A stretch of DNA of 61,918 bases from Methylotenera sp. (lineage in GTDB: Bacteria > Pseudomonadota > Gammaproteobacteria > Burkholderiales > Methylophilaceae): the NCBI RefSeq assembly GCF_030653755.1, contig NZ_JAURYU010000028.1:1-61918 (forward strand), in the 5' to 3' direction. Positions 15,591-37,640 of this stretch are shown in pieces. The notes below the pieces were generated by a model. The model was not told where the DNA came from and did no database searches. It was given only the letters and a program-made list of their open reading frames with translations. How positions within the stretch are numbered: position 1 is the stretch's first letter; each line of letters begins with the position of its first letter. The translations under genes were made by a program, and so were the position numbers.

Positions 15591-15609
15591 TACACCTCAT
15601 CACTAAGGG

Positions 15610-17235: not shown

Positions 17236-17329
17236 TGCTTGATAACCTCTAAAATAAAATGGTATTGGAAGATATTGCTAAAATTTTGACGATGATATTG
17301 GTGATAAATACACTTGTCTGCGCAAGCTG

Positions 17330-17365: not shown

Positions 17366-17387
17366 AAACCTAAGAAACATTTGATCA

Positions 17388-17431
17388 ATGAAAAAATCAG
17401 CAGGCAATGCTTAAGCACCACCTACTGATTT
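17388..17431 (-). terminator. Intrinsic terminator after xoxF
   Basis: On the minus strand AAATCAGTAGG and CCTGCTGATTT form an 11-bp stem (one G-T pair) followed by a T-run. It begins about 30 bases after the xoxF stop. Partial read-through would make xoxF message more abundant than the downstream xox genes. Confidence 0.65.
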
Positions 17432-17460
17432 ATTTAAATCAACTTCTGTTTAACAAACCA

Positions 17461-20527: not shown

Positions 20528-21172
20528 TTAACTCTCTATCACGCCATGACGCATTGCCAATCTGACCAACTCTACTGGACTAGATATTCCGAGCTTTTGC
20601 TTTAATAAGGTTTGATAGTTCGCCACTGTTTTTTGGCTAATTTTGAGCGTTAACGCGATATCTTCAACATTGCTACCTTCTGCTAGCATCCGAAAAACCT
20701 CAAATTCTCTAGCAGATAAGCGCTGTGTAGGATCTTCGCCACCAGACATTGTTTGTAATACGATATTTTGTGCAACTGACGGACTTAGGTAACCTCTACC
20801 AGCAGAAGCCTCTTTAACTGCACGGACCAAATCATCAGCTGCGCCAGACTTTGCAACATAACAACGCGCACCAGCAGATAATGCCTGTGATGCAAATGCA
20901 GCGTTCTCATGCATCGAAAAAATAACAATTCGTGCTGATGGGTAACGCGTCAGAATTCTTCTTAACGACTCTAGCCCACCCATCCCTGGCATCGACATGT
21001 CCATCACTAAAACATCCGGCAAATGCTCACCATACAACTGATATGCCTGCTCCCCACTATCTGCCTCTGCTACTACATGCATGCCTGTGTTTTGCTCTAG
21101 CAAACGCCTCAGACCTGACCGTACAACGGCATGGTCATCCACCAACACAATACGAATACCAATACTCATCAC
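20528..21172 (-). CDS. NarL/LuxR-family response regulator (MoxX-like)
   Basis: A 214-residue response regulator with an intact receiver: acidic pair D12-D13, phosphoacceptor Asp58 in VLVMDMSMPGM, and Lys in ARCYVAKSGA. A LuxR-type DNA-binding domain lies at about 148-205 (LSAREFEVFRMLAEGSNVED). Its start overlaps the stop of the sensor-kinase gene by 4 bases, so the pair is co-translated. MoxYX regulators control methanol oxidation genes in Paracoccus; by analogy this one probably controls xox or mxa genes. The GGGA-N5-TCCY sites nearby are a candidate target (inference). Confidence 0.88.
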   Translation of the reverse strand: MMSIGIRIVLVDDHAVVRSGLRRLLEQNTGMHVVAEADSGEQAYQLYGEHLPDVLVMDMSMPGMGGLESLRRILTRYPSARIVIFSMHENAAFASQALSAGARCYVAKSGAADDLVRAVKEASAGRGYLSPSVAQNIVLQTMSGGEDPTQRLSAREFEVFRMLAEGSNVEDIALTLKISQKTVANYQTLLKQKLGISSPVELVRLAMRHGVIES

Positions 21173-22521
21173 ATTACTTTCTTTTTAAATGGCAACTTCG
21201 CTTGAATTTGCACACCAAAACCAACTCGGCTGTTGAGTTCAAAATGACCGCCCAGCCCCTGCACGCGCTCTCGCATACCAGCAACACCAAAGCCCGATGA
21301 AACCAATTTTGGATTAAACCCTTTGCCATTATCTTCCACACTTAATATGAGTTCGTCAGATTCTCGGTGAAGACTCACGACGACTTTAGTAGCATCTGAA
21401 TGTCGCGCAATATTCGTTAAACACTCTTGAACAATTCGATATATTGCAATCGTCACAGTCTCATCAGCACCGACAAAATCACCTGAGAGCGATACATCTA
21501 CTGCAATACTGCGGTTTCTTTGCACCCAAGTATCAATTAAATCTTGTAAGGCTGCTTTAAGTCCAAGCTCGTCTAAGCTGCCAGGTCTTAGGCGTTGCAA
21601 CATGCCGTGGACGATATTCATCATTTGCCTTGCCACCACATCAATCGCTTTGGCACTTTCACGCGCATCGTCAATCGTTTTAGCATGTAAAATTGTGGAA
21701 GCATCAATATGAATAGCGGTTAAATGCTGCCCAACTTCATCGTGCAAATCTCGAGCTAGGCTTTTTCGCTCATCCTCTTGCAAGCTAATCATTTGTTGCG
21801 TTAGTTGATGGTTACTTTTAATACTGTTTTGCAGCGTTTCGGCCATTGCATTAAATTTACCGCTTATGTCGGTCAGTTCAGGCAAGGTAAAGCTTGGCAA
21901 ACGTGAATCTAAGTTGCCTTGCTCTAGCTCCGACAATGCAACCAACACACGATTAACTGGGCGAAGCGCTCGCCCAACTGCCCAATAAATCATTGCGTTT
22001 ACCACGACGAAAAAGATGGACACCAATACCAATATCCCTAGTATGTCACTCCAGATTTCTGCAATCTCATAAGATGGGTCAGGCGTAACAACTAACTCAC
22101 CTAATATTCTTCCATTAGCAAATATTTGTCTTTTAATGGGAGGCATCGTCTCAGAAACGGCATCCATTGCGTTTAAAAACCATGGGGGGGCAGGCCACTC
22201 ATCTACTTTAGCTACAGGGCGATTACTATCTCTAAGGTTCCCTCTGGCATCAAAAAAGTCAATGCGCAAATGACGCACATTCTCAAGACTTTGCAATCTA
22301 AATATTGATGCCCTGTTAGGATTAACGCCGTTTAACCACACATAATCTGAGGTGTAGTGCAGAATCTCAGCATCTAATAGGTGCAGTGCTAACAATGCTG
22401 TTGACTCCACCTCCGCACGTACATCGTCACGTGCGTTGCGAATCATCAACAATGCACCAATCAACATGACTAACAATAGCAATGCTGTAATGATTAGATT
22501 AAGTCTGAGTTTAAGATTCAT
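21169..22521 (-). CDS. Sensor histidine kinase with LapD/MoxY periplasmic domain
   Basis: A 450-residue membrane kinase: helix at about 8-27, periplasmic domain (30-157) of the LapD/MoxY type, second helix (158-182), HAMP linker, HisKA_3 dimerisation domain with His260 in SLARDLHDEVGQH, and a HATPase domain with DNGKGFNPK and GFGVAGMRERV. This architecture fits MoxY, the methanol-oxidation sensor of Paracoccus. The periplasmic ligand is unknown; a metal, methanol or formaldehyde are possibilities. It has no close SD at its ATG. A strong terminator and a tiny reading frame precede it. Confidence 0.87.
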   Translation of the reverse strand: MNLKLRLNLIITALLLLVMLIGALLMIRNARDDVRAEVESTALLALHLLDAEILHYTSDYVWLNGVNPNRASIFRLQSLENVRHLRIDFFDARGNLRDSNRPVAKVDEWPAPPWFLNAMDAVSETMPPIKRQIFANGRILGELVVTPDPSYEIAEIWSDILGILVLVSIFFVVVNAMIYWAVGRALRPVNRVLVALSELEQGNLDSRLPSFTLPELTDISGKFNAMAETLQNSIKSNHQLTQQMISLQEDERKSLARDLHDEVGQHLTAIHIDASTILHAKTIDDARESAKAIDVVARQMMNIVHGMLQRLRPGSLDELGLKAALQDLIDTWVQRNRSIAVDVSLSGDFVGADETVTIAIYRIVQECLTNIARHSDATKVVVSLHRESDELILSVEDNGKGFNPKLVSSGFGVAGMRERVQGLGGHFELNSRVGFGVQIQAKLPFKKKVM

Positions 22522-23060: not shown

Positions 23061-25271
23061 ATGATGTTTAAAAAGAAAGTATTAGCTACCCTAATTCCGC
23101 TTGTATTTATACAACCAGTGTACGCGGACGAAACTAAAGAAGCGATTAAGTTAGACAAAGTGGAAGTAACAGGTATTTTGCCTGAGAAATTAGAGTCAGT
23201 GCCTGGCTCTTTCGATATTGTCAGTGAAAAAGAACTTGAAGCAAGCCGCCCCTTCTCAATTAAAGAAGCACTAAGTAACGTACCAGGTGTGAATGTCGTA
23301 CAAAATGAAGACCCATTAGGTTTAGCACAAAATATTGGTATCCGCGGTATGGATCCACGCCGTACCTCACGCACACTGTTACTTGAAGATGGTATGCCCT
23401 TATTCTTAGCTCCTTATGGCGACCCTTCCTCTCACTATATTCCTATGCTAGACCGTGTTAGCCGTATTGAAGTCGTTAAAGGCTCAGGTCAAGTACTTTA
23501 TGGCCCACAAACAGTAGGCGGCATGATTAACTTTGTGACTAAACCAGTTCCTAAAGACGGCTTGGCAGGTAGCGTATCCGCAGTGGGTGGTAATAACGAC
23601 TTTTATGGCTTACATGCCAACGTAGGTTACGGCAATGAACGCGGCGGCATCATGGTCGACGCGATTAAAAAAGAAGGCGATGGTATTCGTGATAATCACG
23701 ACTTTGATGTAGAGGAATACACATTAAAAGGCCAGTTAAATCTAACGGATCGTCAAACTCTAATTGCTAAACTTGGCTATTACAAAGAAGAGTCTCACGT
23801 GTCTGAAACAGGCTTGGGTGAAGTTGATTATGCAAGAGATAAATTCCAAGCGCCATCAGGCAAGAATGACTTCTTTGAACATGAGCGTAAATCTGCACAG
23901 TTACAACATATTTTCCAAATTGATGACAAAATGAAGTTATCAACTCAAGCGTACTATGCTCATTCATACCGTAGTTCATTCCGTCAGACCGATGCACCTG
24001 GTGGTTATGACGACGATGACGCTGGCGAATCAACGGGTGTTACCGTGATGGATAGATGTAGTGGTTTAGAATTGACCGAAGCTACGGCAGAGCAGTGTGG
24101 TGGTCGCCATCGCCCTAGAAGCTATAACTACTGGGGTATTGAGCCACGTTTAGATGTGAGCCATAATTTATTTGGTGTCGACAGTGATGCAGTGCTTGGT
24201 TTCCGTTACCATGAAGAAGACATTAGAAGAAGGCAGTTCCGTGGTGCTGACCCAAGATTCCAAAGTCTATCTTATGCGCAGGCTAATTCGTTATCACGTG
24301 AAGATATCGGTATCAAAGTTGAGGCTAAATCTTATTACGCACAAAACACGTTCCACGTGAATGACTGGGCCATTACACCAGGGGTGCGTATCGAAGATAT
24401 TAAAATCAAGACCGATGTACGACGTGCTGATGGTGAAGTGCAAAACAACCCTGAATCTAAACTAACTAACAACCAAACTGAGGTGTTGCCTGGTTTAGGG
24501 GTTGCTTGGAATGGGATTGCCAATACGACTTTCTTTGGTGGTGTGCATAAAGGCTTTGCGCCACCACGTCCTGACCGTGATTTACGTGCTGATGGCCCTG
24601 ACTCTGCTGTTGTAGATAAAACCAAACCTGAAACCAGCACTAACTGGGAAATCGGTGTGCGTTCAAACTACTTCAAAGGGGTAAGCTTCGCATCTACCTT
24701 GTTCCATACTCAATTTGACGACATTGTCGTGAATAACGGTTCTGGTGAGTTTGTGAACGGTGGTGAGTCACAGATGTCTGGCTTGGAATTGGGAGGTCGT
24801 ATCGACTTTGGTACAATTTACAACACAGCGCATAATATCTATGTATTAGGTTCGTACACCAATACCTTCACAGCGAAGTTCAAGAAAGATGGTCCAGATG
24901 CTGACAGTGGTATTGTCAGTGGTGATCGTTTACCTTATGCACCACGTCATTTAGCATCTGTTAGCGTAGGTTATCAACATCCAGTAGGGTTAGACGCGCG
25001 CATTGGCGCTACTTACATCAGTAAGCAAGAAGTTGATGCTTTTGCTAGAGTGTTAGATCCAGTCGATGCTGCATTATCTGGTTTAGCTGGTGATGTGCCA
25101 TCTTATACATTGTTTAACGCTTCTGTGAACTTCAAACCAGTGGGGTCTAAAGCGACTTACTTTGTGAGCGGGTATAACTTAACTGACCGTGAATACTTAG
25201 CAAGCCGTGTAGATGGTATGTCTGTTGGCCGTGGTCGTCAGGTGTTTGGTGGGATTCGTTACGACTTCTGA
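23061..25271 (+). CDS. FecA-like TonB-dependent outer-membrane receptor
   Basis: A 736-residue outer-membrane transporter: signal peptide (to about 23), plug domain (about 45-160, including GLAQNIGIRGMDPRRTS and IEVVKGSGQVLYGPQTVGGM), and a 22-strand barrel ending in a C-terminal Phe after GRQVFGGIRYD. The overall type is FecA/siderophore receptor. One predicted loop holds an acidic stretch G-G-Y-D-D-D-D-A-G-E, which could bind a hard metal ion. The position between moxYX and the extra mxaRSACKL set suggests uptake of a metal complex, perhaps a lanthanophore; the substrate is not shown by sequence. It faces the extra mxa set and shares a terminator with it. Confidence 0.9.
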   Translation: MMFKKKVLATLIPLVFIQPVYADETKEAIKLDKVEVTGILPEKLESVPGSFDIVSEKELEASRPFSIKEALSNVPGVNVVQNEDPLGLAQNIGIRGMDPRRTSRTLLLEDGMPLFLAPYGDPSSHYIPMLDRVSRIEVVKGSGQVLYGPQTVGGMINFVTKPVPKDGLAGSVSAVGGNNDFYGLHANVGYGNERGGIMVDAIKKEGDGIRDNHDFDVEEYTLKGQLNLTDRQTLIAKLGYYKEESHVSETGLGEVDYARDKFQAPSGKNDFFEHERKSAQLQHIFQIDDKMKLSTQAYYAHSYRSSFRQTDAPGGYDDDDAGESTGVTVMDRCSGLELTEATAEQCGGRHRPRSYNYWGIEPRLDVSHNLFGVDSDAVLGFRYHEEDIRRRQFRGADPRFQSLSYAQANSLSREDIGIKVEAKSYYAQNTFHVNDWAITPGVRIEDIKIKTDVRRADGEVQNNPESKLTNNQTEVLPGLGVAWNGIANTTFFGGVHKGFAPPRPDRDLRADGPDSAVVDKTKPETSTNWEIGVRSNYFKGVSFASTLFHTQFDDIVVNNGSGEFVNGGESQMSGLELGGRIDFGTIYNTAHNIYVLGSYTNTFTAKFKKDGPDADSGIVSGDRLPYAPRHLASVSVGYQHPVGLDARIGATYISKQEVDAFARVLDPVDAALSGLAGDVPSYTLFNASVNFKPVGSKATYFVSGYNLTDREYLASRVDGMSVGRGRQVFGGIRYDF

Positions 25272-25432: not shown

Positions 25433-26371
25433 TTAGCGTCTAAGCATGCTTGGTATGTACGTAGCCAATATCAACATCATCGCTAGCACTAAATATATCC
25501 ATCGCACTGAATATGCAGTCACAAAACTAGCAGCAGGTTTTTGCTCTTGCACATACTCATAAAACTGTGGCGTATTGCTACCTTCTATATAACTCGCTTT
25601 AATTTCCGCTGCTAACTCTTTAAGGTGCTCATCCTCAAGCTTCGATAAGTAACGATCATATTCTGCGGAAGCAACTTGAGGATCAGGCTCATCCTGACTA
25701 GTATCGGTGTAGTTCACACCACCACCTGTACTATTATTCTCCCCTGATGGCCAAAACCCCACCCATTTATTTAAGGAATTATAGCGTGGCACAGCGACAT
25801 GTTCTTTGCCCCCAACACCAACGAACAGCACGTGTTTACCTATTTGTACGCCATCTAGGTTCTGCCTAATGGTTACATTAAGCTTTGGCGCTTCGTCACC
25901 ATCAGTAAAGAAAAGTAGCTTTGCTGGTGTGTTTAATGAGTCAAATAAAGTAGCAGCTGCGCGCACGCCTATCGTTAATCGACTATCGCCTTTCCACGCC
26001 ATACGCCATTCAATATGGTCGATGGTGTCATTAAGCACATCATAGTTTTCACACACCTCTAAAGGGTTTATCAGTAAAGCAACATTGTCTGATGCAAAAA
26101 CTCCGACACTGATATGTGTACCACATGGTGATGATTCTACAATTTTAGTCATTAAGTGCTTCGTATATGCCATACGGCTGACATTTTGGTTGTTGAGTTT
26201 TACATCCTCAGCATTCATGCTTTGTGAAACATCTGCCAGTAACAGATAATTATGCACTTCCTGCTTTAATTGAATTTCAGGCTTAATTAAAGCAAGCAAT
26301 AATAGTGCTGATGCCACTATGTAGAGAGCCGTTTCGTAGTTACTTTTAAACCAAGTGAATAGCTTATTCAT
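25433..26371 (-). CDS. MxaL-like VWA protein (second mxaRSACKL set)
   Basis: A 312-residue membrane protein with helices at about 12-28 and near the C-terminus (about 287-310), and a periplasmic von Willebrand A domain whose metal site reads D-V-S-Q-S (YLLLADVSQSMNAEDVK). It is the counterpart of mxaL at 33192-34202, sharing KLNNQNVSRMAYTKH-like and PLEVCENYDVLND-like segments. MxaL is required for calcium insertion into MxaFI in methylotrophs; the target of this copy is unknown. The start overlaps the stop of the mxaK-like gene by 4 bases; it is the last gene of the set. Confidence 0.8.
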   Translation of the reverse strand: MNKLFTWFKSNYETALYIVASALLLLALIKPEIQLKQEVHNYLLLADVSQSMNAEDVKLNNQNVSRMAYTKHLMTKIVESSPCGTHISVGVFASDNVALLINPLEVCENYDVLNDTIDHIEWRMAWKGDSRLTIGVRAAATLFDSLNTPAKLLFFTDGDEAPKLNVTIRQNLDGVQIGKHVLFVGVGGKEHVAVPRYNSLNKWVGFWPSGENNSTGGGVNYTDTSQDEPDPQVASAEYDRYLSKLEDEHLKELAAEIKASYIEGSNTPQFYEYVQEQKPAASFVTAYSVRWIYLVLAMMLILATYIPSMLRR

Positions 26372-26904
26372 GGCAATCCAATCGGTAGGTTGCTAAGTTC
26401 CATTGCGGACTGTTCCTTAAGCGCTATTTTTGTATTCTGGGCTAAAGTGGATTGCAACAAACTAAGGTTAAACCTTACTGAGCCCAAAGTTGGATCTAAA
26501 CGTAACGATTGCTCGTAGGCCATTTTGGCTTGCGTATAGGCATACCTTGCATCATCTTGCAGCGAACCATCCTCATTCACTCGGCGAACAAGACCTAATA
26601 TAAATAAATTGTTCGCGATGTTAAATTGTATTTTGGCCTGCTCAGTCATAGAGGGGTTTGTTTCCAACAATTGCCCATAAGTCTGAACTGCATGCTTATA
26701 ATCTTGCTTACTCCCCTGATCATAAGCTGCTGCAAACTTTTGTTGATATGGGAAGGCGTTGTCATTAATTTGTTGATTAGTCGCAATTGCCTGATTGACC
26801 AATGAAATTTTTCTATATTGGTAAGCTTCATATATGGTCCCAATCAGACCTGCCATAAGAAGCAGCCCAAATATAAGGTTGCTGTTTTTTATGTATTTTG
26901 CCAT
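26368..26904 (-). CDS. MxaK-like TPR-type membrane protein (second set)
   Basis: A 178-residue protein with an N-terminal anchor (about 8-27) and a helical TPR-like region (YGQLLETNPSMTEQAKIQFN, YEQSLRLDPTLGSVRFNLSL). By order and size it matches mxaK at 34199-34765. It overlaps both neighbours. MxaK belongs to the mxaACKL group needed for active calcium-methanol dehydrogenase. The sequence is only loosely similar to the canonical copy, so this may serve another partner. Confidence 0.75.
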   Translation of the reverse strand: MAKYIKNSNLIFGLLLMAGLIGTIYEAYQYRKISLVNQAIATNQQINDNAFPYQQKFAAAYDQGSKQDYKHAVQTYGQLLETNPSMTEQAKIQFNIANNLFILGLVRRVNEDGSLQDDARYAYTQAKMAYEQSLRLDPTLGSVRFNLSLLQSTLAQNTKIALKEQSAMELSNLPIGLP

Positions 26905-27869
26905 GAGTGTACCCTTAAATTTTTAATGATTAATATAAGTAAGGCAAGTACCAATGCCATGATGATTAAGTTTTTTGAGTAGTCATGCCCTGGGACAGTC
27001 ACTGTATATTGAATGACATTTTTCTCTTTTGAATCGATATACTGCAAAGCTGCTTGCAGTGTCGTTGGGTTATCTGCCTCAAATGCCTTGTACTTAATTT
27101 TAAGGCTACTAAAGTATTTATGAAGCTCAAGGCTTGTGACCTCGCCCTCTCTAAATTTTTGCTTGGTGAAAATGCTGACTTGGTCTGGCTCATGCAACAC
27201 GATCCAATACAAATTTATTTTTTTATCCGTTAGTTGCTCTGCAATTTTTTGCTTAACACGAGGGCTAATTTTCCCTGCACCATCCGACAACAAAATCACT
27301 GCACGAGAGCCTGAGCTTTGAATCTTATCGAACATGGCAATACCCTCCGTTACTCCAGAGCCGATATTAGTTTGATTCAATGCCGAACTAGTAGCCGCTT
27401 TGATAGCAGAGTGAATGGCCTCTCGATTATTTGTGATTTTCACGTTATACAAAGCTGAGTTTGTAAAACTGACTACCCCCATCATGTCGTCTGGGCGTTC
27501 ATTAATAAACTTGGTGATAAGACGCCTAGCAGCCGCTGATTTGATTTCGGTGGCCACACCGCTAGTAGGGTCCCCAGCAAAAGGCTTATCCATACTCACG
27601 CTACGATCAATTACCAATACCGTCTGGGCACCTTTACCAATTTTTTGTATTTTTCTCTCTGCACCTTGAGGCGATGCAAGCGCAAAAATAATACTCAATA
27701 ACAGTAAAGTAATGATTGCTTTAACAATGTGATTAGCAATTTCTGAAAATCTATCTTCTGGCGCTAACGCTAGCCAAGAATACATCTGACCTTGATGACT
27801 TTTCAGCCAAAATGGCACAAATGCGAGTGGAAGTAGCAGAAGAAACCATGGGTTAAGTAATGTCATCAA
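26889..27869 (-). CDS. MxaC-like VWA protein (second set)
   Basis: A 326-residue BatA/MxaC-type protein: helices at about 5-20 and 47-65, a VWA domain with MIDAS D-R-S-V-S (TVLVIDRSVSMDKPFAGD) and LLSDGAGKIS, and a C-terminal helix (about 300-318). It shares the layout of mxaC at 34750-35745, including WIVLHEPDQVS versus WIFLRSANGAS positions. It overlaps the mxaK-like and mxaA-like genes. Probably part of an inner-membrane complex with periplasmic VWA domains. Confidence 0.8.
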   Translation of the reverse strand: MMTLLNPWFLLLLPLAFVPFWLKSHQGQMYSWLALAPEDRFSEIANHIVKAIITLLLLSIIFALASPQGAERKIQKIGKGAQTVLVIDRSVSMDKPFAGDPTSGVATEIKSAAARRLITKFINERPDDMMGVVSFTNSALYNVKITNNREAIHSAIKAATSSALNQTNIGSGVTEGIAMFDKIQSSGSRAVILLSDGAGKISPRVKQKIAEQLTDKKINLYWIVLHEPDQVSIFTKQKFREGEVTSLELHKYFSSLKIKYKAFEADNPTTLQAALQYIDSKEKNVIQYTVTVPGHDYSKNLIIMALVLALLILIIKNLRVHSWQNT

Positions 27870-28783
27870 ACGCCCCGTTCACAATCACGTAAGCGACGAC
27901 TTAATACCATTAAGTCAGCCATCAGCTGTTCACTACTTTGAGTTTTCTGTGCAAATAGCGCTTGATTAGACTGCTCAAAGAACGCTTCAATTTCTTTTGT
28001 GAGTTTCACAAATGCTGGATGTTTAGTCAAAAAGCTATTCAATTCATTTGCAAAGAGATTACTACCATGCAGTTGATTAAATGCTTGGTGCATATCACTT
28101 AGTGCTTGCTTCTCACCCTCAGCATTTTTAGGTAGTTTCTTCAGTTTTCGATGTGCTTTAGCAAAAGCGCCATTCATAAACGGCAACCAGCGCTTATCTG
28201 CGTTGATGTAAACCAAGCCTAGTAAACCAACCATTAGGATTCCAGTAAAAACAATCAGCTTATTTTTATGTTGCTGCAAATCAATTTGGGTAGGTTTAAA
28301 CTGCATATGCATGTTTTCTCTTGCTTTAGTCATCCCTTTTGGGGCTAAAGAAGAAAACCAGAATTTCCAAGCAGGAAGATTAACCGACAATGCCTGCGGA
28401 CCCCCAGTAAGTGCAAATTTTTCTGCTGGTAATTGCAACACGCTGGGCACAAATACTGCACTAAACACCTGATACCGCAAATCAATGTTGTACTGTATTC
28501 CCTCTTTAGAGGCTGACTGAGTAATGCTGATCTGACTTAACTCAACATCGTCATGTCTTACTCCCTTCATTGGCAATGTTTGTAGTGATAATTGATAAGG
28601 TGCCTTAACGTCTAATATAATTTTTCTAGACAATACATCACCGACTTGAATATTGTGGCTCTGTAATGGATTAATAACACTAATGATTTTAGCTTCAGAT
28701 ATTTTCGATTCCTGCGCGATAGCACCGTTAAAAATCGCAAACATCCCTAATAAAACATAACACTTGGTTTTAAAATTTTTCAT
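27866..28783 (-). CDS. MxaA-like protein (second set)
   Basis: A 305-residue exported protein: signal peptide (to about 23), periplasmic part with VGDVLSRKIILDVKAPYQLS near the N-terminus, one membrane helix (about 172-190), and a cytoplasmic helical tail of about 110 residues. The order RSACKL and the overall layout match mxaA at 35773-36708. MxaA is needed for calcium incorporation into methanol dehydrogenase in known methylotrophs. It overlaps the mxaC-like start by 4 bases. Confidence 0.75.
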   Translation of the reverse strand: MKNFKTKCYVLLGMFAIFNGAIAQESKISEAKIISVINPLQSHNIQVGDVLSRKIILDVKAPYQLSLQTLPMKGVRHDDVELSQISITQSASKEGIQYNIDLRYQVFSAVFVPSVLQLPAEKFALTGGPQALSVNLPAWKFWFSSLAPKGMTKARENMHMQFKPTQIDLQQHKNKLIVFTGILMVGLLGLVYINADKRWLPFMNGAFAKAHRKLKKLPKNAEGEKQALSDMHQAFNQLHGSNLFANELNSFLTKHPAFVKLTKEIEAFFEQSNQALFAQKTQSSEQLMADLMVLSRRLRDCERGV

Positions 28784-28825
28784 AGATTCTTAATATCTTT
28801 TTTAAGGTGTGTGCAAAAGCCTTAC

Positions 28826-29686
28826 TTAGCCCATAAATTGTTCAAAATACTCAGACATCAATTCAGCATTAAAGGACTCTTTCAGGTAAATTGGCTGGTA
28901 ATCAAAACTTGCGAAGATGTTTTCCAACTGTTCTTTACGTTTCATAAACACTGCTTCAAATTGCTTTCTCACTGAATCTCTAAAGAAAATGCTGCGACTC
29001 ATTCCTGTTTCGGGGTCTAGCATGTTGCCAAACCCAAACTTAGGCAGCTTTTTATACTCCTGATCATCCCAAAGCACTACTGGAACAATTTGATGCACAG
29101 ACATTGCGTTGAGTGCCTGCTCAAGCAGTTCTAATGGCATGTGAAAATCAGAAATCCAAAATACCAACCCACGATGCTGACTAAGATATTGCGGCACTTC
29201 TAGAATGCCATCAGCATCAATATGCATCTGTTTGTAATTTTTTAACTGATCAATCAATTCAAAAGATTGGTATACGTGATGACTTAAAGGCAAAGTAAAA
29301 TCTTCAAGCACTTCATGGTTGTAGCCTATGAAGCTAAATACATCCCCAGCATTAAACGCTGAATAAGCGACAGATGCAGCGACTTCCATTGCCAAATCAA
29401 GCTTACGCACATATCCCTTATACTGCATTGAGCTTGAGCAGTCGCATACGGCAAAAATAGGCGTCGTATTATCCTGATTGAACAACTTAACTTGTATCTG
29501 CTCATAAGGGTCTCGCAAGGTCTGACGTAAATCCATGCGCCTAGCATCCGGATGATCAATCAGCGAGACGTTACCCCTGTATTCAAACCCTAATCCGCGC
29601 TGGGAGCCTCGGTGATCACCAGCATGAATGCTGCTGGACTTCCAGGGGATTTGATATGAGAATGGTTTGGCGTATGCTGGAATCAT
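28826..29686 (-). CDS. MxaS-like DUF58 protein (second set)
   Basis: A 286-residue cytoplasmic DUF58/VWA-fold protein. Landmarks are DHPDARRMDLRQTLRDPYEQ, the VWA-like AVCDCSSSMQYKG and VFWISDFHMPLELLEQAL. It matches mxaS at 36711-37640 in order and key segments. DUF58 proteins act with MoxR ATPases. The start overlaps the mxaR-like stop by 4 bases. Confidence 0.82.
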   Translation of the reverse strand: MIPAYAKPFSYQIPWKSSSIHAGDHRGSQRGLGFEYRGNVSLIDHPDARRMDLRQTLRDPYEQIQVKLFNQDNTTPIFAVCDCSSSMQYKGYVRKLDLAMEVAASVAYSAFNAGDVFSFIGYNHEVLEDFTLPLSHHVYQSFELIDQLKNYKQMHIDADGILEVPQYLSQHRGLVFWISDFHMPLELLEQALNAMSVHQIVPVVLWDDQEYKKLPKFGFGNMLDPETGMSRSIFFRDSVRKQFEAVFMKRKEQLENIFASFDYQPIYLKESFNAELMSEYFEQFMG

Positions 29687-30726
29687 GCTGCTTTAGCCTG
29701 TGCTGGTACAGCAACAGTGTTTAATATCTGTGTTGTAAACTCACGCGCCAACTGAGTTCTGCGGTTCTCATACATAGAGTTAAATACTAGTCTATGTGCA
29801 ATTAACTCATGAAACACGGCATGAATATCTTCAGGATACAAACTATCTCGATTCATCAACCATGCATTGACACGAGCCGCCTTAAGTAGCATACCCATGC
29901 CACGAGGACTAGCACCTGTATGGACTAAACGATTCACATCAACGCTGTCCATTTTTATGCCAAATTTGGCTGGTGACTGAGTGGATTCCCATAAGTCGAT
30001 TGCGTAATCTTCCAGCGTTGGGCTTGATTTGATGTGGCTTTGTAGCGTATCTGAAAATTGATTGAGTTGATCAAACTGCAGTACATTAGACTCTACTTGC
30101 TTGGTCAGGTTTTCAGCGTGTTGGAACTTCACATTGAACATGAGTGATTTTCTTAATTCGCGATCCTCTGGAATCTCAATCGGTATTTCCATCATAAATC
30201 TGTCACGTGCTGCTGATGGAATTTCAAAGGTTTCATTTTTTTCAACCTGATTTCTATCTGCAAACACTACCATATGTGGCAGCCGGTATTCTTTTTTGAA
30301 GGCACTAATATGTCGCTCTGCCATCACGCGCAACATTAGGGCATGTACTTGTGGTCTGGCCCGATTGATTTCATTAAAAAAGAAAACAGATAAATTTTCA
30401 CCTGCGCGTAGTAAAGGACCTTCATCAATTTTTGGCCTACCATCTTCACCTAAATATGTGTGATAAATTAAATCGTTCGGCATTAAGTCTACCGTACCTT
30501 CAATTCGCTCATAAGCACCGCCAATACATCGTGCAATAGACTGTAACAATGTGGTTTTGCCCACACCTACGCCACCTTCCAGCAATACATGACCACGCGC
30601 AAAAATGGCAATATTCATTAACCTAATGGCTTTATCTTGGCCGACGATAACTTTTTTAACTTCATTTTCTAGCTTTAAAGCATGATTACGCCAGTCTGTT
30701 AATTGATGATCTAGTGGTGGTGACAT
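29683..30726 (-). CDS. MxaR-like MoxR AAA+ ATPase (second set)
   Basis: A 347-residue MoxR-family ATPase with Walker A GGVGVGKTT, the conserved VFFFNEINRARPQVH and an arginine-finger region (IPSAARDRFMMEIPIE). It is strongly similar to mxaR at 37610-38635. MoxR ATPases are thought to act as chaperones for metal or cofactor insertion with DUF58 and VWA partners. The ATG at 30726 has AAAGGA 6 bases upstream, better than a start 13 codons earlier. It is the first gene of the second RSACKL set and divergent from the MocR regulator. Confidence 0.87.
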   Translation of the reverse strand: MSPPLDHQLTDWRNHALKLENEVKKVIVGQDKAIRLMNIAIFARGHVLLEGGVGVGKTTLLQSIARCIGGAYERIEGTVDLMPNDLIYHTYLGEDGRPKIDEGPLLRAGENLSVFFFNEINRARPQVHALMLRVMAERHISAFKKEYRLPHMVVFADRNQVEKNETFEIPSAARDRFMMEIPIEIPEDRELRKSLMFNVKFQHAENLTKQVESNVLQFDQLNQFSDTLQSHIKSSPTLEDYAIDLWESTQSPAKFGIKMDSVDVNRLVHTGASPRGMGMLLKAARVNAWLMNRDSLYPEDIHAVFHELIAHRLVFNSMYENRRTQLAREFTTQILNTVAVPAQAKAA

Positions 30727-30785: not shown

Positions 30786-30926
30786 GTTACAAAACTTTCA
30801 ATTTCGTTGTAACAAGTAGTGAATGCAATGTAACAGAATGTAAAAACCAAAGAACCATCCAGTTTAAATAAGCTAACTGGTCCAGTAGAATTTAGAGTTA
30901 CAATATGGTTTACATCAGCCAGTTTT
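30786..30926. promoter_or_regulatory. Operator-like repeats between MxaR-like gene and MocR regulator
   Basis: GTTACA/TGTAAC half-sites occur at 30786-30791, 30808-30813, 30829-30834 and 30897-30902; the first three are about 21 bases apart, two helical turns. A second family, CCAGT/ACTGG, occurs at 30859, 30876 (ACTGGTCCAGT palindrome) and 30919. MocR regulators often bind repeated half-sites, so these may be its operators and set both divergent promoters. Confidence 0.45.
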
Positions 30927-31007: not shown

Positions 31008-32474
31008 ATGCTTCGCTCATGGAGTCTCAACTTAACGATTACGCACACTTCTGGATTAGCTGTTTATTTGCAAATTGCACAACAAATTATTGATGAAATT
31101 CAAAGAGGTAGGCTTGCACCGTCAACTGCAATGCCGGGCACAAGGGATTTATCTGAAAAACTCAAGGTAAATAGAAAAACCGTTGTGCTGGCATATGATG
31201 AACTGATTGCTCAAGGCTGGCTTACCACACAAAGCAGAAGGGGTACTTTTGTTTCTGCTGACTTACCTAACTTCACTGCCTTGGAAAGTGCCAGCCAAGT
31301 AAACGACAAGATAGCTTCTAGCTCAGAAGATACAACAGGTACGCAAACTTTATATCAAACATCTTCTGCTAGTACGATTGATTTCAACGACGGGATTCCA
31401 GATACACGTTTGATTCCTTGCGATACGCTTTCGCGTGCATTTAGGCATATATTACTCGGCCCCAAAAAAGCCAATAAGCTTGGGTATGGTGACCCAAGAG
31501 GCTCCATAGCGTTACGCCAAGCCATTGCGACCATGCTCAATATGGAAAGAGGTCTTAATGTTGATGAAAATAAAGTTTGTACTACACGCGGTAGCCAAAT
31601 GGGGATTTTTTTGGCTGCTCGCGTTTTAACCAAGCATGATGATTATGTCGTTGTGGAAGATTTAAGTTACCCACCTGCAAGGGAAGCATTCCAGTCATGT
31701 GGTGCAAAAATCCTGACCGTAGGTCAGGATAAATATGGCATAGATGTGGTCGCACTTGAAAAACTGTGCAGAAAATTCCCCATTAAAGCCATTTACGTCA
31801 CTCCTCACCATCAGTTTCCTACCACCGTCATTATGACTGCAGAACGTAGACTAAAACTACTCATGCTTGCCAAGCAATATGATTTCACCATTGTAGAAGA
31901 TGACTACGACCACGAGTTTCACTTTTCGCATCGCCCAGTATTTCCACTGGCAAGCACCAATCATGGTGATAGAGTTATCTATGTAGGATCACTATCCAAG
32001 GTGCTCGCGCCTGGGCTACGCGTTGGATATCTCGTTGCATCAAAAGCATTTATTGATCAGTGTGCGCATGAGGTGATGTTAATTGATAGACAAGGCAACT
32101 CAATCACCGAGTTAGTGGTTGCAGAGTTGATGATCTCTGGCGAGATTAAACGGCATATTCGCAGAACATTTAAAATTTATAACGAACGTCGGAATGTCTT
32201 AATGAATCTAGTGAATAGCCAGTTAAGTGATTTTGTAAATTTTGATGAGCCTAGCGGAGGGCTTGCATTCTGGTTACGCCTTAATCACGGCTTAAATATA
32301 AATGAGATAGAGAAAAATGCGCTAAATAAGAACGTACGCATTCTACCTGGTACGCTTTTCTCAGCCTCATCTCAAGAAGTCCATGCAATTAGACTTGGTT
32401 TTGGTAGTCTAGATGTAAAGGAGCTATCGCTAGGTATTAGAAAATTACGTGATGCCTTTTGTGAGAAAGGCTAA
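31008..32474 (+). CDS. MocR/PdxR-type regulator (GntR-aminotransferase fusion)
   Basis: A 488-residue transcription factor: N-terminal GntR winged helix (about 10-80, LAPSTAMPGTRDLSEKLKVN) and a class I aminotransferase-like domain (about 125-480) that should bind pyridoxal phosphate. The PLP-lysine region reads VIYVGSLSKVLAPGLRVGYL. MocR proteins regulate vitamin B6, taurine or amino-acid genes. Here it sits between the two RSACKL sets, divergent from one and convergent with the other, so a link to methanol oxidation is possible but unproven. The start has AAAGGA 6 bases upstream. Confidence 0.88.
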   Translation: MLRSWSLNLTITHTSGLAVYLQIAQQIIDEIQRGRLAPSTAMPGTRDLSEKLKVNRKTVVLAYDELIAQGWLTTQSRRGTFVSADLPNFTALESASQVNDKIASSSEDTTGTQTLYQTSSASTIDFNDGIPDTRLIPCDTLSRAFRHILLGPKKANKLGYGDPRGSIALRQAIATMLNMERGLNVDENKVCTTRGSQMGIFLAARVLTKHDDYVVVEDLSYPPAREAFQSCGAKILTVGQDKYGIDVVALEKLCRKFPIKAIYVTPHHQFPTTVIMTAERRLKLLMLAKQYDFTIVEDDYDHEFHFSHRPVFPLASTNHGDRVIYVGSLSKVLAPGLRVGYLVASKAFIDQCAHEVMLIDRQGNSITELVVAELMISGEIKRHIRRTFKIYNERRNVLMNLVNSQLSDFVNFDEPSGGLAFWLRLNHGLNINEIEKNALNKNVRILPGTLFSASSQEVHAIRLGFGSLDVKELSLGIRKLRDAFCEKG

Positions 32475-32685: not shown

Positions 32686-33195
32686 TCACTTTTTTGGTAC
32701 AGGCTTTTCTAAACCAACTAATGCGGCTTTAACATAAGCGTTGACAGCATTTAATGCAGATTCATCATCCAGACCTTTGGGAGGCTCGTTTGTTGTATCA
32801 GCACGATAATAACGCGCCACCCACATCACTTTAGAACCAGCACCATCAGCACTTACCTTGAGGCGCCCAGTCAATGAACTGACAGGTAAGGCTTTAATAT
32901 CAATATCACCCAAGCGATATGAAATACTCATTTCGCTAGGTAATATTTCATCAATTTCTTCGTTAATTTTGCTACCGTTTTTTAGTACTAATGTACGCTT
33001 AAGTGGAGTTATTGACTCACATCCAACGACATCAGGATGCCAATCTTTAATCGCACATGGTTCACTTAATAGTTTCCAAACCACATCAGGTGCTGCGCCA
33101 ATCAGCGCAGACTGATCAGTTTTTTGTGGGGTTGGTCCGTGTGCAATCGCTGGTGCTGCAACTGCCATCAAAATTAGTGCATATATTCTCTTCAT
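32686..33195 (-). CDS. mxaD: MxaD, periplasmic SRPBCC protein
   Basis: A 169-residue exported SRPBCC protein (signal peptide to about 18; PDVVWKLLSEPCAIKDWHPD; LPVSSLTGRLKV). By position at the end of mxaFJGIRSACKL it is MxaD, which in Methylobacterium speeds electron transfer between methanol dehydrogenase and cytochrome cL. The start overlaps the mxaL stop by 4 bases. The usual next genes mxaE and mxaH are not found here; a MocR gene on the other strand follows. Confidence 0.85.
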   Translation of the reverse strand: MKRIYALILMAVAAPAIAHGPTPQKTDQSALIGAAPDVVWKLLSEPCAIKDWHPDVVGCESITPLKRTLVLKNGSKINEEIDEILPSEMSISYRLGDIDIKALPVSSLTGRLKVSADGAGSKVMWVARYYRADTTNEPPKGLDDESALNAVNAYVKAALVGLEKPVPKK

Positions 33196-34202
33196 TTTCT
33201 CTTTCTCTTAATCACACGTTGAAATAATTGGTTTAAAAAGGTAGCTGGTATAAAAAATAAAATGATTAGGCACATCGCTGGTATAGCAAACCATGGACGT
33301 AGATCAGTATCTGCCATGCGCCATACAGACATTTTCCTGCTAGAAAATGCATCATTCAGTTGATTAACCTCTTGGAGATTTATGTAGTTAAGCCTTGTTT
33401 CGTTTGCCAATTTTTTTAAACTAGCCTGATCTTGTCCAGAAAGATTGGCATGATTAATTTCTGTAGGGGCACTACCATGAGGTGCGTTTCGCCCGTGCAT
33501 TCCATCTGCTTGCTGTTGTTCCATTTCCAATGCTGATTGCACTCTTGCCATGCCAAAAGTTGCATATCGTTGCACGTCATCTAACTCCCAATAGCCAGTA
33601 ATATTATCTTTGTCATCTAACTTAGGAATTAAACTTGGCTTTAAACCACCAACCCCTACGATTAAACCTTTTACCTGCCCGGCTTTACCTTCAAACTTAG
33701 GCATATAGTCAGGGTTTCCGGGAGGAGCCTGATGGCCGTCAGTGATGAATGCAATATTCATTTGGTCATCAATTTTTGCAGTTTTTGCAATCGCATCAAA
33801 TAAGCCATGACTAATAAAAGAGTCAGCAGCCCAAGCCATACGCCAATCTAAACGTGAAACAGTTTCATCTAATGCACTAAAATGAGTACACACCTCTAAC
33901 GGATGTGTAATGGTGGTTGTGTTTCGCTCTGTAAATAAGCCTAACGCGACCCGCGAACCACATGGTAATGCACGTAATGCCTCGCGAACACCCTCTTTAG
34001 CAAACACTAAGCGGCTTAAAGAGCGTTCACTTAGCTGCATATCGCGCACGTTCATGCTTTGTGTGATGTCAAGCACAATCAACCAGTCATATACACGTTT
34101 AGGTAACTTCATGTGTGGCTGAAATAAGCAAATCACTAACAATATGATTGCAAGCAATAATGCTTTACCTCGTATATCTAGCTTATGCCACCAACTTATC
34201 AT
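33192..34202 (-). CDS. mxaL: MxaL, VWA-domain membrane protein
   Basis: A 336-residue BatB-like protein: helix at about 12-30, periplasmic VWA domain with a DxTxS variant of the MIDAS (WLIVLDITQSMNVRD), FITDGHQAPPGN, and a C-terminal helix (about 305-325). In Methylobacterium mxaL is one of the mxaACKL genes needed for calcium insertion into methanol dehydrogenase. It overlaps mxaK and mxaD by 4 bases at each end. The Thr in the MIDAS differs from Ser in the paralogue at 25433. Confidence 0.87.
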   Translation of the reverse strand: MISWWHKLDIRGKALLLAIILLVICLFQPHMKLPKRVYDWLIVLDITQSMNVRDMQLSERSLSRLVFAKEGVREALRALPCGSRVALGLFTERNTTTITHPLEVCTHFSALDETVSRLDWRMAWAADSFISHGLFDAIAKTAKIDDQMNIAFITDGHQAPPGNPDYMPKFEGKAGQVKGLIVGVGGLKPSLIPKLDDKDNITGYWELDDVQRYATFGMARVQSALEMEQQQADGMHGRNAPHGSAPTEINHANLSGQDQASLKKLANETRLNYINLQEVNQLNDAFSSRKMSVWRMADTDLRPWFAIPAMCLIILFFIPATFLNQLFQRVIKRKRK

Positions 34203-34765
34203 GGCATACCACGTGGAAACCCAGGAATTGATGGCCAGCCATCGGGAGGAACGCCCATGTCTTTTTCTTCCTCATCTTCTTTAGATGCTTTTCTACCCTG
34301 ACTCTCTATGATGGGAGATAGCCTGAGCGCTAGTTCATAGTTGTACTTAGCATCTATCCAATCTGGTTTAAGGCGTAATGCGTCACGGTAACTTTCTTTA
34401 GCCAACGATAATAGTGGCATGGCTTTATCCCATGCTTCTAAGCCATGATCATCAAGTAGTTTAGTTGCTTGGCTTAAATAAATATTTGCGGTGTTGTAAT
34501 GCGCAGATTGACCAATATTCGTATCTTTTGAATTTGTAATACTGGCATATAAAGCTAATGACTTTTGGTCGTTTGCTTTTTGTTTCCATAGATAGGCATC
34601 TGCAAAAACAGCCTCATGTGTAGTGGTATTATGTAGTCGATTGCTATTTAGATTGTCGTTATAGCGATTGGCTAAATACAAACCTCTAGCTGTCATCACA
34701 ATGGTAACCATCGAAACAATGAGTACAACAACCATCAATGGCATGATGTTCAGGTGGCGCGCCAT
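34199..34765 (-). CDS. mxaK: MxaK, TPR-type membrane protein
   Basis: A 188-residue protein with an N-terminal anchor (about 7-29) and TPR-like helices (YRDALRLKPDWIDAKYNYEL). The C-terminus is Pro/Gly-rich (PPDGWPSIPGFPRGMP). It overlaps mxaC by 16 bases and mxaL by 4. It belongs to the mxaACKL group linked to calcium loading of methanol dehydrogenase. Confidence 0.84.
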   Translation of the reverse strand: MARHLNIMPLMVVVLIVSMVTIVMTARGLYLANRYNDNLNSNRLHNTTTHEAVFADAYLWKQKANDQKSLALYASITNSKDTNIGQSAHYNTANIYLSQATKLLDDHGLEAWDKAMPLLSLAKESYRDALRLKPDWIDAKYNYELALRLSPIIESQGRKASKEDEEEKDMGVPPDGWPSIPGFPRGMP

Positions 34766-35745
34766 TGCTTAACCTCCGTTAAATGTAATGCAAATAAGCC
34801 ACAGCCACACAACAACGCTAGCAGATAAAATAGGCTTGCTAAATTATGTCGTGGGGCTGCCTCAAAATAGCGCACAGGTTGATTTTTCAAACGTGCAATA
34901 TCCGCCATTGCTGTCTCTACAGCATGTGGGCTTTCAGCCTCATAAGCTTTGTATGGCACCCCTAATGTGCTAAAAAATTGATGTAAGTGATACTCTGGAT
35001 AAGCGTCCTCACGCCCCTCTTCTGGTGGCGCAGATAAGCTGGCACCATTCGCCGATCTCAGAAAAATCCAGTAAAGTGAAGCACCCTGCCTAACAAACAT
35101 AGTCCGTAGCATATCTTGTGTTTTCATATCCAAATGCGCACCACCATCAGAGACTAATAAAACAACGCGGGAACCTGTCATAGGTTTTCCTTCAAAATAA
35201 TCCAGCGCTAATCCCAACCCTCGCGCAATCGCAGTAAACCCCATCCCACCAGCGTCAGTTGCCTTTAAGGCAGACTTCACAGCCTCTCTGTCCCCACCTA
35301 ACGGTGCGACTAAAATGGGTGATGTGCTAAACGTAACCATGCCAATTAAATCTTCATGGCCTTTATCTACAAATGTTTGTAATACACGTCGCGCCGCAGC
35401 CATTTTAGAGACACTACCTTCTGCTGGTTTATCTGCAAAGTCATCATTCATACTCGCGCTTCTATCAAGCACCATCATGATGTGAGCGCCACGACCGACC
35501 CTTTCAACCACTGGTTCTCCCCAGTAAATGCCAGCAAGAGCAAGTACCATAAACATGATGAGTAGCGACCCGAGCAAACGCCATACGCGCTCTACCCAAA
35601 TTGAAAGCGTATCTTTAGGTAGGCTCAGCAAAGATGGATGTGGGAATGACTCATGTCCGCGTACAAACCAAGGGAATAATCCCAAAAGAAGCAGCATCAG
35701 TAGCAAAGGATACTCAATACCTGAATGATGAAAAAAATCGCTCAT
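34750..35745 (-). CDS. mxaC: MxaC, VWA-domain membrane protein
   Basis: A 331-residue BatA-like protein with helices at about 10-25, 52-70 and near 310, and a VWA domain with canonical MIDAS D-R-S-A-S (IMMVLDRSASMNDDFAD), GMGFTAIARGLGLALD and LLVSDGGAHLD. Required with MxaA, K and L for active methanol dehydrogenase in known methylotrophs. It lies 27 bases after mxaA and overlaps mxaK. Confidence 0.87.
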   Translation of the reverse strand: MSDFFHHSGIEYPLLLMLLLLGLFPWFVRGHESFPHPSLLSLPKDTLSIWVERVWRLLGSLLIMFMVLALAGIYWGEPVVERVGRGAHIMMVLDRSASMNDDFADKPAEGSVSKMAAARRVLQTFVDKGHEDLIGMVTFSTSPILVAPLGGDREAVKSALKATDAGGMGFTAIARGLGLALDYFEGKPMTGSRVVLLVSDGGAHLDMKTQDMLRTMFVRQGASLYWIFLRSANGASLSAPPEEGREDAYPEYHLHQFFSTLGVPYKAYEAESPHAVETAMADIARLKNQPVRYFEAAPRHNLASLFYLLALLCGCGLFALHLTEVKQWRAT

Positions 35746-35772
35746 TTATACAATAATCATATATTTTAAGAT

Positions 35773-36708
35773 TTAGATAGACTCTAAACGCATCAGTTGA
35801 TGACTCAATTTTTTGAGTTGTATCAGACTTAACTTTGGCTGTTCTCCTGCAAAGAATGCAAGCTCAGAAACCAAATAAAAATGCTCAATGTCCTGCTGCA
35901 TAGGTAGTAACCATGCGCAATGTTGATAAAGTAGTGACAAACGCTCTATCGTTAATGTGAATTCTGCACTGGCATCAAAAGCGCTACGCAAAATCCCCAT
36001 TGCTTTAAAGGTATTTGCAATCTCAGCGCTGTTAGCTTTGCTCAATCTTTTAATCTCACGGTAAGCTCGTCTAAATGGCTGAGCCTTGCTCACTCGCAAA
36101 TGAAACCAATCAAAGTGCCAAATAAAATAGACTAGTGTCAATAAAAACGTAAATGAGGCTAGCCCCAGCATTGCTACATAGATTGATATATTGTGAAGCT
36201 TAGGTTTAATATCCGCACGCAGCGCCATCGTTTCTTTATTCATCTGCGAAGGTAATACAGATGAAACCAACACTTGCGCTGGTTGAATATCAATCGCGAT
36301 AGCTCGTTTCTTTTGTTTAAACTGTAAATGCAATGGTCTTAAAGCGTAGTATCTTGCCTCCTGCATCACTCTAAATACCTGCCATTCCAAAGTAATGTGG
36401 TGACGAGTATCGTTAGCAAAATCGGTTTGTTTCCAATCTGCATGCCGTAACTCTATATTGGCAGCCCCCTTACCTATGGCTGGTATTGAGGTTTCATCTA
36501 AGCGATACCCTTTTGGTGTAATCACTTCAACGGTCTGATGCGCAATATCACCAACACGGTAGCCAAGTTCCTCAACGTTGGACTTCACTAAAACCGCACG
36601 ATCTTGATGTTCGATATTTTTAATTTGATCTTGCTCATCTGAGGCATTAGCGAATGAAGTGATTAAAATAAAAAGTGAGCCATATAAAGGCATACAAGCG
36701 TTCGACAT
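35773..36708 (-). CDS. mxaA: MxaA, methanol dehydrogenase maturation protein
   Basis: A 311-residue protein with signal peptide (to about 22), a periplasmic region containing ELGYRVGDIAHQTVEVITPK, a membrane helix (about 177-196) and a cytoplasmic helical tail. MxaA is implicated in calcium insertion into MxaFI. It starts 2 bases after the mxaS stop, and the gene order fixes the assignment. Confidence 0.83.
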   Translation of the reverse strand: MSNACMPLYGSLFILITSFANASDEQDQIKNIEHQDRAVLVKSNVEELGYRVGDIAHQTVEVITPKGYRLDETSIPAIGKGAANIELRHADWKQTDFANDTRHHITLEWQVFRVMQEARYYALRPLHLQFKQKKRAIAIDIQPAQVLVSSVLPSQMNKETMALRADIKPKLHNISIYVAMLGLASFTFLLTLVYFIWHFDWFHLRVSKAQPFRRAYREIKRLSKANSAEIANTFKAMGILRSAFDASAEFTLTIERLSLLYQHCAWLLPMQQDIEHFYLVSELAFFAGEQPKLSLIQLKKLSHQLMRLESI

Positions 36709-36710
36709 TG

Positions 36711-37640
36711 TTAACTAGCCTCCAACATATGACGTGTCAAAGCTTCTACATCAAAGTGATCTTCAATAAAAAATGGCATGCGTGTCCCTGCCAATAAACA
36801 GCTAGAAATAATCTCTGCACGTCGGATTGCATAAGATTCCTTAATTCGCTTCACCAAGCTTGGCCTAAGAAATAACGATTGATCATTGCCTGTCTCTAAG
36901 TCACGCACGCGTGCCCACCCCCAGTTTGGAATATCACGATACTCTGCACTATCCCATAGCACGACTGGCACAACATCATGTGGTGATAGTGAGGCTAATG
37001 TCTCTTTTAGTAAGCGCTCATCTAAATGAAAGTCTGAAATTAAAAAAACTAGAGACCGTTTTCTTCTTAACTGCGTAATTGCGCGAGGCAGAGCACTGGC
37101 TCCAACCTGCGCTAAACTACTGATGTTGATTAGTTTTTCATACACCTCGTCTGCAATGCCACGTCGATACGAAGGTGCTTCAAACAAATCACTTTTCATC
37201 TCATCATCACAAGCAACCATGCCAAATGCATCTCCATTGCGTTGTGCAGACCATGCAATGGATGCTGTGATATCAGCCATCAACTGAGTTTTATTGGAAT
37301 TGCCTGAAAACCGTATGGACGCAGACAAATCAAGTATGGCATACACAGCAATCGCACCACGCTCATAATAAGCACGCACCATCAGTTGCTGAGGAAATGT
37401 GCGTAAACTTGCACGTAAATCAATGCGCCTTGGATTAGTATTTTCTAAAAATGGTACATACCCACGAAAATCAGCACTTCCACCAGACGTGCGTGTAGCA
37501 TGGCTACCTGGCTGTACGCTTCTAGAGCGCCACACTAGCCGATAGTAAAATTCACTGGATAAAAAATGACTCAATTGAATGATGAAACCGATTGATGAAT
37601 AAAAAATACTTAAGGTGCAGATACTTGATCTAACACGCAA
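36711..37640 (-). CDS. mxaS: MxaS, DUF58 protein
   Basis: A DUF58-family cytoplasmic protein with NTNPRRIDLRASLRTFPQQL, the VWA-like AILDLSASIRFSG and LVFLISDFHLDERLLKETL. The longest frame gives 309 residues and overlaps mxaR by 31 bases, but the paralogue aligns only from about residue 20, so a later TTG start near residue 23 is possible. It should partner the MxaR ATPase. Confidence 0.83.
   Translation of the reverse strand: MRVRSSICTLSIFYSSIGFIIQLSHFLSSEFYYRLVWRSRSVQPGSHATRTSGGSADFRGYVPFLENTNPRRIDLRASLRTFPQQLMVRAYYERGAIAVYAILDLSASIRFSGNSNKTQLMADITASIAWSAQRNGDAFGMVACDDEMKSDLFEAPSYRRGIADEVYEKLINISSLAQVGASALPRAITQLRRKRSLVFLISDFHLDERLLKETLASLSPHDVVPVVLWDSAEYRDIPNWGWARVRDLETGNDQSLFLRPSLVKRIKESYAIRRAEIISSCLLAGTRMPFFIEDHFDVEALTRHMLEAS

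Follow-up and report, generated by a model that had tools for sequence, protein, structure and literature searches.

The window analysed here comprises positions 1 to 61,918 of contig NZ_JAURYU010000028.1 of a Methylotenera sp. (Methylophilaceae), and our subject is a compact set of six genes on its minus strand, at 25433-30726, in the order mxaR-mxaS-mxaA-mxaC-mxaK-mxaL (RSACKL). The gene order, together with a MoxR AAA+ protein bearing Walker motifs, a DUF58 protein and two VWA proteins with DxSxS motifs, identifies the six open reading frames as an MxaRSACKL cluster, as a first-pass annotation of this DNA had described. Also as described there, no mxaF, mxaJ, mxaG, mxaI or mxaD lies within 25433-30726, and the set does not occupy the canonical-operon position. 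The genes were said to overlap at their ends, which holds for four of the five junctions (R/S 4 bp, A/C 4 bp, C/K 16 bp and K/L 4 bp), while mxaS2 and mxaA2 are separated by a 42-bp gap. The mxaR2 frame is open from a TTG at 30765, but its likely start is the ATG at 30726, a reasonable end given that two relatives begin at the corresponding ATG.

Features of the window discussed in the text
Feature	Position	Strand	Remarks
mxaR2 (MoxR-family AAA+ ATPase)	29683..30726	-	Pfam MoxR-type AAA domain; Walker motifs
mxaS2 (DUF58 protein)	28826..29686	-	PF01882, E 1.4e-20
mxaA2	27866..28783	-	homology to MxaA of core set (33%) and canonical set (21%)
mxaC2 (VWA protein, DxSxS)	26889..27869	-	PF13519; BatA-like NF047508 far below cut-off
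mxaK2 (small TPR-like protein)	26368..26904	-	PF24575 below cut-off; 28% to core MxaK
mxaL2 (VWA protein, DxSxS)	25433..26371	-	PF13519
Operator CTGGACCA-N15-CTGGA	30858..30885	-	between MocR gene and mxaR2; single exact match in G000
Divergent MocR-type regulator	31008..32474	+	scores as PdxR, 374 bits against NCBIfam cut-off 320
Canonical mxaRSACKL, comparison set	33192..38635	-	downstream of mxaFJGI
mxaF, comparison	40860..42659	-	EWDFAG; no MocR operator upstream
TonB receptor	23061..25271		neighbour of window set
moxYX-like pair	20528..22521		neighbour of window set
Island xoxF	17461..19365	-	QWDYDG; nearest solved sequence 7o6z; no MocR operator upstream

The set is held by purifying selection. 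Of 58 accessory MxaR proteins (accessory sets are defined below), 57 have the P-loop, and the DxSxS motif is found in 58 of 58 MxaS, MxaC and MxaL proteins. The ratio of non-synonymous to synonymous substitution rates (dN/dS) of the six genes is 0.013-0.087 against the genomes G140 and G060, and 0-0.231 against G112, which is nearly identical and offers few changes (G and L numbers denote genomes and loci throughout). The intact motifs and low dN/dS rule out decay, in line with the first-pass annotation. MxaA2 matched no family in a Pfam scan, and MxaS2 had no match among PDB sequences at E 1.

The window's own genome, G000, holds three RSACKL sets: the window set, the canonical set and a third, "core" set on another contig (G000:C4). 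The window set had been taken for the second one; it is indeed distinct from the canonical set, but the third had been missed. All six of its proteins have one-to-one counterparts in the canonical set, as claimed, with identities of 53% (R), 30% (S), 21% (A), 28% (C), 22% (K) and 26% (L), and all six are nearer to the core set (65, 43, 33, 44, 28 and 37%, respectively). The genes beside the core set are presumably fabA and fabB.

A FastTree phylogeny of R, S, C and L from 103 of 108 clusters (five cut or broken ones were left out) separated three groups, with 20 mxaF-linked, 20 core and 60 accessory rows. The window set is one of 58 of the 60 accessory rows that form a single clade with 100% local support, outside the mxaF-linked clade that holds the canonical, MxaFI-specific sets. 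A fourth, very divergent type of RSACKL set was also observed, right after mxaD in G078 and G127 (L094 from 13014 on, L095 from 12971 on) and between the TonB and moxY genes in G112 (L034, from 32 on). Its three sets join the mxaF-linked group on a long branch, a position that carries a long-branch warning. The fourth-type mxaR in G078 and G127 has a MocR-like operator.

Our survey of the distribution of the sets covered 150 genomes of the family, sampled evenly from a larger group. MxaS of any kind was found in 141 of them, the core set in 122 (at E 1e-105), the accessory set, defined by an MxaS identity of at least 51%, in 58, and mxaF in 40. To compare their partners, we used the 109 good genomes (at least 90% complete and at most 5% contaminated) and counted a gene as xoxF4-like if it matched a single XoxF4 query at E 1e-245. 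Of the 55 good genomes with the accessory set, 46 had at least two such genes, as compared to 2 of the 54 without it; for mxaF the figures were 36 of 55 and 2 of 54. Among the 34 mxaF-less good genomes of at least 2 Mb, at least two xoxF4-like genes occurred in 13 of 19 with the set and 1 of 15 without it (Fisher p 3.6e-4), these counts and the p value taking no account of relatedness among the genomes. Accessory sets thus follow extra xoxF4 copies more closely than mxaF. XoxF4 and a single MxaS match occur in small mxaF-less genomes, examples being G013, G032 and G044 (1.3 Mb).

The first-pass annotation left out the gene divergent from the set, which encodes a MocR/PdxR-type regulator. It has no vitamin B6 genes adjacent, its neighbours being mxaR2 and mxaD. 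In a neighbour survey of 60 accessory-type loci, the window included, out of 75 with an MxaS identity of at least 49% (some cut by contig ends), a PdxR/MocR gene lies near 23, a second regulatory module, p250+TetR, lies near 27, and a few loci have both. When the region between the MocR gene and mxaR2 was aligned at 20 loci, the repeat of the putative operator was exact in 16, with variants in L043, L076, L078 and L082. Among 102 larger loci, there are 23 matches to the pattern CTGGACCA-N13 to 17-CTGGA, of which 21 lie upstream of an accessory mxaR and two upstream of xoxF4. The latter two are in G051 and G107, where xoxF4 is flanked by the MocR gene and mxaR2 and the operator is present twice, once for xoxF4 and once for mxaR2. 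Across the 150 genomes, the N15 form has 41 sites in 35 genomes, as compared to five sites for a reversed-pattern control. Twenty-four are at an accessory mxaR, eight at xoxF4 (G041, G051, G061, G090, G107, G110, G134 and G149) and nine elsewhere (G011, G014, G030, G055, G064, G073 twice, G121 and G142), the G014 site being next to a MocR homologue of 44% identity at the end of a contig. An extra mxaL-like gene was observed just upstream of mxaR in G134, G127 and G131 (L058, L063 and L067), with the MocR operator between the two.

The regulator accompanies xoxF4 as well. MocR genes beside xoxF4 are 38-69% identical to that of the window, and in G061, G041, G090 and G047 the MocR-xoxF4 pair occurs without a MocR-linked accessory set in the loci read. 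In a MocR tree with several long branches, the labels of the 11 xoxF4-linked and 25 set-linked rows (one of the latter a distant 25% homologue) need three changes. A matrix built from 20 accessory mxaR sites alone, with the limit at 99% of background, passes at 11 of 37 xoxF4 genes, which is not an unbiased rate because five of the 37 regions were fetched for carrying the operator. Nine of the passing genes are next to a MocR gene, one has its site at a contig end and one has no MocR gene. The matrix passes at none of 19 mxaF genes, none of 19 canonical mxaR genes and none of four xoxF genes of the window's kind, and at three of 23 core-like mxaR genes, two of them the fourth set type in G078 and G127. 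In relatives, a regulator with its predicted operator is common to accessory sets and xoxF, as judged from the sequences.

The second module consists of p250, a 250-residue protein, paired with a TetR-type gene (L040 12929-14287 and 25 other loci); four p250 examples scanned matched no Pfam family. The pair is also found next to xoxF4 at three loci (G110, G050 and G030) and next to a single core set (G005). Most type-2b mxaR genes are preceded by a palindrome, ACAGACCTGTCTG, whose core 8-mers are present in 22 of 27; it has 51 sites in 39 of the 150 genomes, as compared to eight for the control. Thirty-two sites are at the mxaR of a set, two directly upstream of xoxF4 (G010 and G030), two in the G050 xoxF4 cluster, five next to p144, one near a TetR gene and nine elsewhere. 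A TetR matrix at the 99% background limit passes at two of 37 xoxF4, seven of 23 core-like mxaR, two of 19 canonical mxaR and none of 21 mxaF-labelled genes. Since this matrix is less clean than the MocR one, the link between TetR and xoxF4 is the weaker one and rests on adjacency at three loci and the two exact sites in G010 and G030. Two side observations concern the same palindrome. The small membrane-like protein p144, for which a Pfam scan found no family, is encoded downstream of the TetR palindrome, in the vicinity of accessory sets and xoxF4 (L063 13922-14356, L226, L048 and L046). A TATACAGATCTGTTTACA-like palindrome that resembles that of type 2b precedes the core mxaR (L004 upstream of 8641, and other core sets), where it may belong to the divergent fatty-acid gene.

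On balance, the window set is probably an accessory maturation module of the MxaRSACKL type that, in the Methylophilaceae, would mainly serve an XoxF-type lanthanide methanol dehydrogenase (MDH), above all XoxF4, rather than MxaFI. The first-pass annotation had also pointed towards XoxF, and that direction stands, now on the grounds of shared regulators and operators and of co-occurrence with extra xoxF4 copies; the reasons given there, namely the TonB receptor, moxYX and the adjacent xoxF, do not hold up, as shown below. To our knowledge, how a lanthanide enters a periplasmic pyrroloquinoline quinone (PQQ) enzyme is not settled. In the mechanism that we propose, MocR would act at the CTGGACCA-N15-CTGGA operator, and, by analogy with the known system, MxaC and MxaL (the VWA proteins), MxaA and MxaK would assemble with MxaS into a complex in the membrane. 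Remodelling of this complex by the MxaR ATPase would then allow the metal-PQQ centre to enter the dehydrogenase, already folded in the periplasm. With a second set under a switch of its own, the cell could mature additional XoxF upon induction of that enzyme, and in G000 the client could be one of its XoxF4-like enzymes or the island XoxF. A more far-reaching proposal is more tentative: XoxF4 may have its own inducible machinery, in which accessory sets and extra xoxF4 genes are switched by MocR or TetR and a lanthanide (or lanthanide-PQQ) is inserted.

Several observations weigh against XoxF4 as the main client. Genes that are regulated together need not act on the same protein, and the MocR operator is missing from 26 of the 37 xoxF4 genes scored. 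The TetR matrix fails to separate xoxF4 from core or canonical mxaR, and the co-occurrence figures are uncorrected for relatedness, as stated above. In G000, the exact operator occurs only at mxaR2 and is not shared with any xoxF of the same genome; the two xoxF4-like genes, the island xoxF and mxaF all have background scores with the MocR matrix. A MocR operator at the genome's own xoxF4-like genes is ruled out by these scores, and the link to XoxF there would thus be one by descent, not by shared control. G122, a 98% complete genome of the same genus, has XoxF4 at 88% but no MxaS match at E 1e-20, and G021 has mxaF, XoxF4 and the canonical set only; both speak against a strict need of XoxF4 for accessory sets. 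G122 may offer a natural test of XoxF4 working without any RSACKL set, or may reflect an assembly gap. The main XoxF of M. silvestris and of Methylorubrum extorquens is XoxF5, for which reason the data from these species leave XoxF4 unsettled. As far as they go, those data point away from XoxF: the RSACKL genes of M. extorquens fall with lanthanum together with mxaF (PMC6414531), and the MxaR and MxaS proteins fall in M. silvestris (PMC9291206). A review states that mxaACKLD and mxaRSEH are unnecessary for XoxF (PMC11845868).

The set might instead be a second calcium-loading set for MxaFI, as a dosage or back-up copy under another signal. The accessory set is present in 36 of the 40 mxaF genomes, which also tells against XoxF4 as the main client; the window set lies 2 kb from the mxa cluster, and the client named for MxaACKL in the literature is MxaFI (PMC6028718). 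The exceptions among the mxaF genomes are G021, G057, G133 and G055, the last with a set at 49% that falls narrowly outside the clade. We nevertheless regard this explanation as unlikely. The set is present without any mxaF match in 22 of its 58 carriers, including 14 of the 17 mxaF-less genomes of its own genus, which rules out strict dependence on mxaF; co-occurrence only with mxaF, the finding that was to have refuted the first-pass proposal, is therefore not what we see. That proposal had expected stand-alone sets to follow xoxF and the TonB gene rather than mxaF, and this is borne out for extra xoxF4 copies and by the 22 carriers, but not for TonB (3 of 60 loci) nor in view of the 36 mxaF genomes. 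Moreover, no mxaF or canonical mxaR passes the operator matrix (none of 19 each), and the window set is nearer to the core set, which also occurs in mxaF-less genomes, than to the mxaF-linked set. One carrier without an mxaF match is Novimethylophilus kurashikiensis La2-4 (G018), a strain counted among the lanthanide-dependent ones (PMC7104280).

Sets of this kind extend beyond the family. In an order-wide sample of 349 genomes, an MxaS-like protein was found at E 1e-30 in 31, 11 inside the family and 20 outside, and MxaF at E 1e-230 in none of the 20 outside genomes, with three first-look candidates per genome scored. At five outside loci that were read, R, S, C and L are in order in all and A and K were also recognised in four, with no mxaF in the 12-14 kb read. 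RSACKL-like clusters with no mxaF close by, as seen in other families of the order, would fit a MoxR-VWA chaperone that serves some other envelope process (involving cytochromes, other quinoproteins or stress), in which case co-regulation with xoxF4 would reflect the same nutrient signal acting through MocR or TetR. MoxR, DUF58 and VWA are broad families, and shared operators prove shared control only. We consider this somewhat less likely still than a second set for MxaFI, given that two unrelated regulator modules each pair with accessory sets and with xoxF4, and that one of the five outside clusters is beside xox-type genes. At that locus (L285, of another family), which lies at the end of a contig, the RSACKL cluster converges with genes of the SRPBCC, beta-propeller and xoxJ-like kinds, and stand-alone sets may therefore be paired with xox genes outside the Methylophilaceae as well.

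The immediate neighbours of the window set, a TonB receptor, a moxYX pair and a xoxF, are present as first annotated, but in the 60 loci surveyed they adjoin the set only in the window, G112 and G060. Elsewhere, relatives of the TonB and moxYX genes occur together by mxa clusters without set 2 (L097 and L106). Such unconserved neighbours rule out the TonB receptor and the neighbouring xoxF as functional partners on the evidence of synteny. That the window set loads the island XoxF with a lanthanide imported by the adjacent TonB receptor is therefore very improbable despite the adjacency in the window, G112 (Methylotenera mobilis 13) and G060: no such receptor was seen at the remaining 57 loci (contig ends truncate some of these); in G140, whose MxaS is 96% identical, the set comes with neither island nor TonB gene within the 20 kb examined and with no mxaF match; and the island xoxF has no operator.

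The xoxF cluster at 10265-19365 is of another kind, its XoxF being nearest to 7o6z, which we take to be an XoxF1-type enzyme. It also encodes a fusion of an XoxJ-like protein with ankyrin repeats, two SRPBCC (MxaD-like) proteins, a SoxY-SoxZ fusion and two beta-propeller proteins. In the canonical cluster, an mxaI-like frame is open in the gap preceding mxaG, and the EWDFAG of the window's MxaF is presumably a calcium-type signature.

If XoxF4 is indeed the main client, the review statement that XoxF needs no Mxa accessory genes (PMC11845868) would fail for a whole family. It would also give a simple explanation for the failure to obtain active XoxF4 in E. coli, where the enzyme was inactive and lanthanide plus PQQ did not reconstitute its activity (PMC6028718). 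Dedicated regulator genes would be named for XoxF4, to which over half of the xoxF transcripts were assigned in metatranscriptomes of Lake Washington sediment (PMC12482762), and the operator would give direct access to the signal (metal, nitrogen or related to pyridoxal phosphate) that switches the extra xoxF genes.

The existence of stand-alone sets is not new. Methylophilaceae genomes were reported in 2014 to have two to four mxaRSACKL copies each, and two even without mxaFJGI, with XoxF and MxaRSACKL both core genes of the family (PMC4109929), the latter point speaking for XoxF as a client. The same paper gives the island of Methylotenera mobilis 13 as mxaFJGIRSACKLD, one gene, RSACKL, one gene, RSACKL, three genes and xoxFJG. 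G112 is this strain, its MxaS is 99% identical to the window's, and the two islands are the same, except that the window lacks the cluster between TonB and moxY in G112. The accessible text assigns no function or regulator to the extra clusters, GntR or a regulator being mentioned for other genes; in two Methylophilaceae papers, GntR refers to the methylcitrate cycle. Stand-alone mxaRSACKL sets and the M. mobilis 13 island are thus already published, as a known kind with no known job. In the literature searched, we found no paper with both xoxF and MocR and no dedicated XoxF4 regulator genes; what is new is the regulators and operators that would tie accessory RSACKL sets to XoxF4, for which that literature held no precedent.

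Besides these published clusters, two known systems come close. The mxaRSACKL genes of the mxa operon are those of Methylorubrum extorquens and Paracoccus, and the window set has the same six genes, order and domains. It differs in having no mxaFJGI or mxaD, in belonging to a separate clade, in its own MocR gene and operator, and in sharing 21-53% identity with the genome's own canonical set. The regulator resembles those of the TauR/PdxR regulons of the MocR family, which likewise involve a GntR-aminotransferase regulator and direct repeats with CTGGAC (PMC5320631); TauR, another MocR protein, binds CTGGACYTAA direct repeats. The main text of that paper does not mention mxa, moxR, quinoprotein or Methylophil, and unlike in the TauR/PdxR regulons, the putative targets here are RSACKL and xoxF4.

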